From positions 186,001 to 250,000 of the forward strand of contig CAKMXJ010000023.1 of NCBI GenBank assembly GCA_928724745.1: 64,000 nucleotides of DNA. The letters run 5' to 3'. The notes under the pieces were generated by a model, which was given only the letters and a program-made list of their open reading frames with translations, searched no databases and had not been told where the DNA came from. The translations under genes were made by a program, and so were the position numbers. This document shows positions 15,859 through 37,964 of the stretch, in pieces. Positions within the stretch are counted from its first letter, which is position 1; each line of letters starts with the position of its first letter. This DNA is from Anthracocystis setariae (lineage: Eukaryota; Basidiomycota; Ustilaginomycetes; Ustilaginales; Ustilaginaceae).

Positions 15859-18800
15859 ATGGACGAAACATTCTTGACCATGTCTTCGGACTCCAGACTC
15901 TCTTCCTTCGACAACATTTGCGACAGTCATGACTGCGAATCAGTGAAACCCTCCGCGTCGCCAGAAAGCCCCATCATCATTTTCGGCTCACAGGGCTCGG
16001 ACTTTCTTGCCGGCTTCGATGTCATCCTTCTCCTCGCCAAACACCATTCAGAGCTTTCCGCCTTCCTGACGCTGGCTCTGAAAGCCCTGCGCAGTGAGTT
16101 GCAAAGCGTAGCGAACAGAAATGTCTGTACTCCGACACGAGCGCCCGAGAAAACAGCACAGCGATCTTCCGAGGTGGAGCTTCTCGCTGTCCTTCCTCCG
16201 TTTGAACCCTTCTCCGATCTGAACACGCTGGTCGACTTTCATCAACGTACAGGTCTCAGAGACCCCGTCATCAACGGAGTCCTTCTTTGCCTTTTGCAGA
16301 CGGCAAGTGTTGTGGCCGTCTACTGTGCTGCGAGTCACGAGCCGAAGGGGGAAGACCTGCCTGGAGAACATCTGTCAAGCCTCTTTGATGCCTGGACGGC
16401 AATCACTGCGCCTTGTTCCCATCTCTTGGGCTTCTGTACCGGGGCATTCTCAGCTCTGTCCGCTCGTCAGTTGGTGCAATCAAAGACACAGATCAACTTG
16501 TGGCAATTCTTCCAGGAGGCGGTGAAAGCCATCCGCATATGTTTCTGGGTCAGCCTGCGCTCGGCTCAAGGCCGTCTTCGGATCGTGGGAGATGACCCCA
16601 CTGATCCTTGGAGCATCGTCGTCGCGGTGAAGGAAGGGATTCAACTCGCAAAGGTGTACGATTGCCTATCGCAATTCAACCAACTCGAAAAGCGTAAGCC
16701 CTTGGACAACCCTGTGCCACTGGTCGTCACCGCCAAAGCTACGAACCAGCTCTCGATTGGAGGTCCATCTCGGGATCTGGAACGGTTCAAAGCTCACTTG
16801 CAAGAAAGTTTTGGTCCACGATGCGCAGTCTCGCCCTTGCACATATTTTCACCATACCATTCTCCAACCTTAAAGACGGAAGCAGACTTGGCTTTGCTCG
16901 ACCTTGAAAGCCGAGATCTTGCCAACGATGGAGCGCTGCCATCTTCGCAGAAAATCCTGTGGGAGACTGCTTCCGCCAATGTTCTCAATGCAACCAATCT
17001 TCGCGGCGCTTTGCAGGTCCTCATCGACAGCAACCTCTGTTCCACTGCAGACTGGGACGAGATGGTTGAGCATCTGATTTCGGCGAGGGAGCATCAAGCA
17101 GAGCTATCGCAGGCAGACATGAGAAGCATTGTGTCTTTCGGTCCAGGAGCTAATCTGGCAGCCGATCTCCGGAAGCGTCTATGCTCTCATTACGATATGG
17201 CACACGGCACTTCGGCTGTCAACGTGCTGGACGTGCCATCCCTTCTACGACAGTGGAGCACCTACCTTGTTCAAGGAGGACCGACTAAGTACGCGCAAAT
17301 CTCGGTTCAGCCCGACGTGCATGGCGATGAAGTGGTCATCGTTTCCATGGCGTGTCGTTTCCCGGGCGATGTACGTAATCCTGATCAGCTCTGGACGTGC
17401 CTTGAGACGGGAAGATCTACGGCCTCCGAGATCCCCAAGCACCTGTTCGACATCGACGCCTACTATGGCGATGGAGTGAATCAGACCATGGCGAGACATA
17501 TGCACGCTCTGCCTGAGATTGTCGTCAAATCGATGGACGCACGACTGTTCAGCATGTCCCCAAAAGAGATCGAGCAGCTGGACCCTCAGCATCGTCTTGT
17601 CATGTTGTGCTCATACGAGGCCCTCGAGCGAGCCGGTTATACTCCGGATCCGAATTCTCCGTCATCGTTTGACCGAAAGCGCATTGCGGTTTGCGTGGGA
17701 GCAGCATGGGATGACTATCGAGAGAATGCAAGCTGGAACATCGGCAGCTACTTTATCACTGGCAACATCCGCGCTTTCATCCCAGGCCATGTATCCTTTT
17801 CACTAAACTGGGAGGGTCCGAGCATCTCGGTCGACTCGCTGGAGTGCTCCGCAGTGACCGCCATACAGTGGTCCAGGCGCGCGCTGCTCAGCGGACAATG
17901 CGATGTAGCTCTGGCTGGGGCAGTCAATGTGTTGACGCAGCCGCAGATATTTATCGCGATGGACAAGGAAGGGACACTGTCGCACAGCGGTACCAATTCG
18001 ACCTTTTCAGCCAAGCTCGACGGCAAGACCAGAGGGGACGGCTGTGGTATCTTGCTTCTGAAGAGACGATCAACCGCGCTCCAAGACGGTGACAAAATCC
18101 TTGCCACTCTTCCCGCGGTGAGGACCACCTTCCATGGGCCCACCGTAGACCATCACTCGAACAGCTCTGCCCAGTCTCAATTCTTAGCCCAGGTCATATC
18201 TGAAGCGGGTTTACGCCCATCGCAGCTAGTTCATATCGAAGCAAGCGGCTACCATACGCAGGCGGGAGAAGCCGCGGAATTCGACGCATTCGCCCAGCTC
18301 TTAGCATCGTCAAAGGCAACTGCGGCCCCACAAAATCATCGTGTCTCTGTCGCAAGCTCGAGGCCTAATGTCGGTGCAGGCGAAGCTGTTTCTGCCATGG
18401 CATCGGTCATGAAGGCCGTCTTGATGCTCGAAAAGGGACTAGTGCCCCGGCAGATCTCAATCTCGCACCCTTCCGAGCTGCAGCCCAGCATCGCCACCAC
18501 TTGCGCACAATCGGCTCTATTTGTGCCCACTCAAGCCCAGCTTCTGCCATCCATCGGTCACGACGGTCGTCGCTGTATTCTCGTCAATAGCCTGGCCAGC
18601 ACAGGCTGTCACGGGGTGATCGTAGTGGGTGCCCCCACCGAGGATGAGAATCCGACTTTAACTGCACCCAACACGAGAAATGTGGGCAAGCAATCCGACA
18701 ATGGTGCTTGGATCTTCCTTCTGTCCGCGAAGACGAAGGAGTCCGGCGAGATGCTGAAGAAATCGCTCATCGATTATCTGCAGCGTGAAGTCTGCCTGCG

Positions 18801-37900: not shown

Positions 37901-37964
37901 ACGCATAGACGAAGGCCACCAGATGATGGTGGCCTTTGAGGGATGGAGCAGCTGCTTGCACCAT
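31931..37964 (-). CDS. PKS-B: polyketide synthase with KS, AT, PT and TE but dead SAT and no ACP
   Basis: A 1979-residue non-reducing-type polyketide synthase in two exons (37964-36687 and 36592-31931). The intron starts GTGAGT and ends CAG, and splicing restores the KS sequence DMCQE-IPEKLY. Order: SAT-like region (1-370) lacking both the GxCxG Cys (LLPYTLS stands in its place) and the PYH His; KS (about 395-800) with Cys566 in DTACSSA, His701 in MHGTGT and His742 in NIGHSE; AT with FSGQGAQ and Ser1038 in GHSLGE; PT with His1387 in GHIILGVPLAP and Asp1580 in LLDSLGG; then about 95 residues without any DSL carrier motif; then TE with Ser1840 in GWSIGG, an Asp in LIDTP and a terminal GDHW. It lacks an ACP, so it cannot hold a chain by itself. 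This is the opposite set of losses from PKS-A. A TATA-like word lies about 80 bp upstream. Confidence 0.9.
36593..36686 (-). other. PKS-B intron
   Basis: 94 nt, donor GTGAGT and acceptor TTCCAG, phase 0. Without it the frame stops inside the KS domain; with it removed the KS reads through with the conserved spacing. Confidence 0.9.

Follow-up and report, generated by a model that had tools for sequence, protein, structure and literature searches.

The window analysed here, a stretch of 64,000 nucleotides from Anthracocystis setariae (contig CAKMXJ010000023.1, positions 186,001 to 250,000; coordinates below are those of the window), carries two genes for polyketide synthases (PKSs), which we call PKS-A and PKS-B. 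PKS-A (15859..22140, + strand) is one open frame of 2093 amino acids; its start possibly lies at 15880, the second Met (residue 8), where the orthologue consensus start MSxDSxFSSFDN falls. PKS-B (31931..37964, - strand) encodes 1979 amino acids in two exons, 37964-36687 and 36592-31931, separated by a GT..AG intron of 94 nt (36686-36593). The two genes are 9.8 kb apart. Norsolorinic acid synthase PksA (8cg4) is the best solved-structure match for both proteins. The order of fungal non-reducing (NR) iterative PKSs, with starter unit transacylase (SAT), ketosynthase (KS), acyltransferase (AT), product template (PT) and acyl carrier protein (ACP), is recognizable in A and B jointly by Pfam, TIGRFAM and structure models. 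PksA has this same order with all activities on one chain, unlike A and B. An earlier note on this DNA had claimed that the two proteins retain complementary domains and had put them forward as a putative two-subunit enzyme.

What does each protein retain? In PKS-A, whose features all lie on the + strand, Pfam matches SAT, KS, two ACPs and a thioesterase (TE), and neither AT nor dehydratase (DH)/PT. The SAT (15979..16860) has Cys193 and His334, the ACPs (20626..20838 and 21031..21237) have Ser1622 and Ser1754, and the TE (21382..22128) has Ser1910 and His2067. The KS (17326..18462) is a pseudo-domain in which the active Cys is replaced by Glu662, the two His by Ser796 and Ala840 and the Lys by Arg, and these substitutions agree between a 55-row alignment and the alignment to 8cg4. 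A misaligned active site, with the Cys that directly follows Glu662 as the true residue, was rejected because the alignment to PksA is ungapped around the site, so that this Cys is displaced. Only a relic of the AT is left (18904..19278), about 120 residues without GHSxG, against 308-331 residues in the same columns of the four AT-bearing PKSs compared. It has been deleted, not point-mutated, which refines the earlier note's statement that the AT had lost its catalytic residues. The pseudo-PT (19561..20448) has a predicted double hot-dog fold, reliable over about residues 1235-1530 (predicted local distance difference test of the whole model, 64), which matches DH and PT structures including the PksA PT and is devoid of the His/Asp pair.

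In PKS-B, on the - strand throughout, Pfam matches KS, AT, a weak DH/PT and TE, and neither SAT nor ACP. With the fungal PT model TIGR04532, PKS-B reaches 202.7 bits (cut-off 168), and no match to this model is listed for PKS-A. Catalytic residues are present in the KS (35456..36791, containing the intron; Cys566, His701, Lys737, His742), AT (34139..35062; Ser1038, His1146), PT (32849..33766; His1387, Asp1580) and TE (31958..32560; Ser1840, His1963); TE Ser and His are thus intact in both proteins. No ACP motif was found between PT and TE or elsewhere in the protein. The N-terminus (36810..37937) is predicted to fold like a SAT or MAT domain (best match CTB1, E 2.7e-5, template-modelling score 0.47, a moderate match) and lacks the catalytic pair. 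SAT identity between A and B is only 14.7%, hence the aligned SAT Cys column in B is uncertain.

The inventories of A and B are exactly complementary. Neither polypeptide holds all minimal activities: PKS-A is without the KS, AT and PT residues and PKS-B without an ACP and the SAT residues. Each residue that the earlier note named is present (Cys193, His334, Ser1622 and Ser1754 in A; Cys566, Ser1038, His1387 and Asp1580 in B), and its account of what each protein keeps and lacks is borne out in nearly every detail by Pfam and alignments for A and by Pfam, TIGR04532 and alignment for B. Neither in the window's pair nor in the orthologues examined was an intact KS found in an A-type or an ACP in a B-type.

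The complementarity extends beyond one genome, to every A-type and B-type orthologue examined. The A-types comprise PKS-A and matched proteins P0004-P0020 (n=18), and the B-types PKS-B and P0124-P0141 (n=19). The KS Cys position is Glu in 18/18 A-types, with a catalytic His at either site in none of the 18 and a GHSxG motif in none; SAT Cys and His are present in all 18. Where the site is covered, ACP1 Ser is found in 17/17 and ACP2 Ser in 16/17 (Violaceomyces has a single ACP), and TE Ser in all 15 sequences that align at its site; three gene models stop short or shift frame. PT His/Asp have been lost from the sequences of Ustilaginaceae and Testicularia and persist in Violaceomyces P0020. 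Among B-types, AT, PT and TE residues and GHSxG are present in 19/19, KS residues in all 18 that cover them, and an ACP in 0/19. In the 11 with an N-terminus, the aligned columns show neither the SAT Cys nor the SAT His, and nine of these have no GxCxG or GxSxG at all. Of the other two, P0132 has GESDG at residue 163 and Tilletiaria P0141 has GFCAG at residue 331, and neither motif stands at the aligned SAT Cys column.

Species were counted among the best 120 matches, where clustering at 90% identity conceals member names. Among the matches listed, both types occur in 9/13 named species, and four species have one type only: A in U. hordei and M. antarcticus, B in U. bromivora and T. anomala. 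The place of B-type P0137 in the KS tree corresponds to that of M. antarcticus among A-types. In seven species (U. trichophora, U. loliicola, M. pennsylvanicum, S. reilianum, P. hubeiensis, S. scitamineum and T. cyperi) the longest contigs bearing A and B are of equal size, which implies that the two probably share a contig. In Violaceomyces, the contig of the Glu-KS A-type (P0020) and that of the ACP-less B-type (P0140) differ in size. By these comparisons of sequences, the split of the PKS is old and stable in smuts.

Mean pairwise domain identities were taken over eight species. In PKS-A they are 54.3% for SAT, 76.5 and 73.3% for the ACPs and 59.6% for TE. The dead KS is conserved at 78.2%, almost as well as the live KS of B, as against 25.9% for the AT relic and 28.9% for the PT region, and we conclude that it is kept for a non-catalytic purpose. 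In PKS-B the KS stands at 83.0%, AT, PT and TE at 64.0, 70.6 and 66.7%, and the N-terminus at 41.9%.

Why would two crippled synthases be maintained side by side? From the inventory, its conservation and the co-occurrence of the genes we infer, with considerable confidence, that A and B make up one iterative NR-PKS in two polypeptides, likeliest a heterodimer joined through the KS domains, which would have arisen by duplication and reciprocal loss and would serve spore melanin. In this scheme the SAT of A would load a starter onto A's two ACPs and the AT of B would charge these ACPs with malonyl. The KS of B would extend the chain carried on A, the PT of B would fold it, and the TE of either subunit would release the product. 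The dead KS of A would stand in for the second KS in the manner of the chain-length factor (CLF) of bacterial type II systems. The purpose of the product, spore melanin, is suggested by presumed orthology to U. maydis genes. PKS-A would thus be the starter/carrier subunit and PKS-B the chain-building subunit.

The pair probably arose, as the trees suggest, by duplication of a complete NR-PKS in an ancestor of smuts and related fungi, after which the copies underwent reciprocal loss. In the KS tree, whose set held no named basidiomycete clade VIII enzyme, the A-types group in one clade, B and its relatives in a second, and both join apart from 21 other fungal NR-PKSs (support 95/87). When the long branch P0048 is removed and a mixture model is used, the sister grouping of A and B has support of 95/89. 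The TE tree separates A and B from 11 other NR-PKSs (99/95), with a weak inner order and a bootstrap that had not settled. Two proteins, P0048 and P0145, on contigs both 58154 long and so probably contig-mates, may represent an earlier stage of the split. The A-like P0048 keeps the KS Cys, Lys and one His, but its second His is replaced by Tyr, Pfam matches no AT in it, and it has lost the gating Phe discussed below; P0145 has KS, AT, DH/PT, ACP and TE and an already altered interface loop.

KS domains usually homodimerize. Which residues would a partner KS contribute? In mouse fatty acid synthase (FAS), the gating F395 is reported to contact three residues of the neighbouring protomer, M132, Q136 and M139 (PMC6954729), and spacing from the active Cys (C161) maps these to residues 633, 637 and 640 of A. 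They fall in a loop, residues 631-643 (17749..17787, +), that is canonical in PKS-A and whose interface role is taken from that report. Positions of the loop conserved in NR-PKSs are kept 8/8 in A and 2/8 in B. The gating Phe shows the reciprocal state: it is Leu or Ile in 13/13 A-types and in P0048, and is retained in 10/10 B-types, the Violaceomyces B-type, 4/4 U-type and 3/3 Tilletiaria-type proteins. When 121 overlapping blocks of 33 residues were compared with NR-PKSs, those in which A most exceeds B in similarity start at A 613 and 628. This pattern is suggestive of an arrangement in which A's loop would serve B's live pocket, while B's loop would face a dead pocket and be free to change; it is likewise suggestive of a heterodimer of A and B resembling that of a KS with its chain-length factor.

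In bacterial type II KS/CLF pairs, a live KS is obligately joined to a KS-like partner without catalytic residues (PMC12664062), and A likewise offers a conserved KS that has lost them. The bacterial proteins are free-standing, whereas A and B are multidomain type I enzymes, and their dead half also bears SAT, ACPs and TE; if the model holds, the pair works like KS/CLF without being a member of that class. It is conceivable, though we hold it only tentatively, that smuts possess a type I counterpart in which the dead KS of A is a dedicated partner, its loop lining B's pocket and perhaps helping to set chain length, and in which pairing preceded reciprocal loss. The order of pairing before loss is suggested by P0048, which retains the KS Cys after losing AT, gating Phe and one His, and by P0145, with its ACP and altered loop.

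Several points count against this interpretation, under which the two TEs are redundant. The interface block was noticed first and tested afterwards: over residues 627-650, A keeps 8/12 conserved positions versus 59/138 elsewhere (p 0.14, post hoc) and B keeps 4/12 versus 90/138 (p 0.057, post hoc), a contrast that is stronger in the U-type (p 0.031) and the Tilletiaria-type (p 0.0003), two groups with no demonstrated A partner. The altered loop also occurs in the ACP-bearing relatives P0144, P0145, P0149 and P0222, most of them without a known A partner, and it would also be explained if the B lineage had switched substrate. The duplication that the earlier note had proposed is favoured by the KS tree, but the approximately unbiased test retains trees that place A (p 0.050) or B (p 0.253) with other NR-PKSs. 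For Tilletiaria anomala the matches listed include an ACP-less B-type (P0141, with GFCAG ahead of the KS) and no A-type. The genome also encodes a lone AT protein, and 10 of its at least 12 PP-binding matches lie outside A, the other two being A's own. In U. maydis, pks1 and pks2 were induced in one mutant and not in a second (PMC10532341).

Could A and B instead cooperate as two homodimers, with A2 presenting its loaded ACPs in trans to B2 and the dead KS serving only to hold A together? Homodimerization is the normal state of a KS, and a conserved dead KS fits a homodimeric scaffold as well as it fits a heterodimer. The reciprocal state of the interface loop and gating Phe in A versus B speaks, suggestively, for the heterodimer, and we consider the two homodimers unlikely, if a serious contender. 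A looser arrangement without any obligate pair, in which B would borrow an ACP from FAS, a mitochondrial or another carrier and A would be a separate loader or scaffold, draws on the further carrier domains of the genome and on the solitary Tilletiaria B-type. Against it stand two conserved NR-PKS-type ACPs 10-16 kb from PKS-B, on a protein without a working KS or AT of its own to serve, and the co-occurrence of the genes; we regard it as improbable. Decaying pseudogenes or an annotation artefact, to which the loss of catalytic residues in several domains and the free drift of A's AT and PT might point, can be dismissed, as can an assembly error, given open frames, identical losses in every orthologue, strong conservation of the remaining domains and the phenotype reported on pks1 deletion (PMC13208730).

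Does the genome offer B another partner synthase? The KS profile search returned eight rows: A, B (two rows), two FASs, one thiolase (C2) and two weak partial matches (C7, 25 bits; C5, 22.7 bits). Apart from these two weak matches, it found no further candidate for a PKS-type KS. The AT search gave four matches: B, the two FASs and the lone AT protein (C2). A third PKS was rejected because the two long KS/AT frames carry Fas1 helical, FAS ACP and meander domains and are FASs, and the C2 matches are the thiolase and the lone AT protein.

Two of the closest published systems are in U. maydis. The proximity of pks1 and pks2 that the earlier note mentioned is correct: UMAG_06414 (pks1) and UMAG_06418 (pks2) are described as adjacent, with three locus numbers between them, and homologues occur across Ustilaginaceae (PMC13208730). 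Like A and B, they are neighbouring PKS genes, with three larger genes intervening here, and a linked pair conserved in the family. Deletion of pks1 blocks melanin (PMC13208730), and ust1 is a regulator of pks1, pks2 and lac1 (PMC10532341). Orthology to A and B rests on gene order, family and the published text, the matches listed including no U. maydis-named sequence. Which gene would A be? Lowest identities in seven Ustilaginaceae are 51.9% for A and 62.6% for B, compared with published values of >50% for pks1 and >58.4% for pks2 (PMC13208730), and these figures would make A pks1. Against this, the 2026 survey lists only pks2 homologues in U. hordei and M. antarcticus (PMC13208730), the species from which A-type proteins P0007, P0015 and P0016 are named.

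A split synthase is not the usual fungal plan, as the earlier note said, but a precedent exists: Pks3 and Pks4 of U. maydis are reported to form heterodimers yielding orsellinic acid and triacetic acid lactone (PMC10098057). They resemble the proposed A/B pair in that two PKSs act together. Unlike A and B, which are spread through smuts, they were found solely in U. maydis 521 among 16 species (PMC13208730), and neither appears by name among the protein-search matches listed. Basidiomycete NR-PKSs may lack a SAT, the named SAT-less enzymes being KS-AT-PT-ACP-TE (PMC10401856). We found no split or half-dead fungal PKS closer than these in the open-access literature searched.

The neighbourhood does not suggest a dedicated gene cluster, which was rejected since Pfam assigns most of the remaining scanned frames to housekeeping. 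The three genes between A and B are a frame of 1333 amino acids with no Pfam match at E 0.01 (22637-26638, -), an Ndc1 nucleoporin and a SOD-domain protein; Pfam identifies no tailoring gene among these three. Farther out, 12-16 kb past PKS-B, are frames for an aldehyde dehydrogenase and an SDR. Directly upstream of PKS-A, a frame with only a weak Cornifin match (13817-15307, +) ends in a 24-bp tandem repeat (15134-15304, 7.1 copies, 98% matches) that encodes an 8-residue protein repeat. Elsewhere in the window, MYG1 and CobW domains share a single frame (45403-47433, +), either a fusion or two genes read together, and a perfect TAGTG array of 22 copies occupies 62661-62770.

The idea of a paired PKS is partly in print. 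In 2026 it was suggested that U. maydis pks1 and pks2 possibly constitute one functionally complete PKS (PMC13208730), in a text from which the words "catalytic" and "inactive" are absent. In the open-access literature searched we found no residue-level account of the pair, its depth, its possible intermediates or the interface model. Where the published remark concerned two genes for melanin, such an account defines an enzyme and assigns its parts. It supplies possible intermediates in the passage from a self-contained megasynthase to an obligate two-subunit enzyme and, with one of two KSs dead, a natural case for the role of the second KS in dimeric PKSs. For genome mining, domain counts would give two PKSs where probably one exists.
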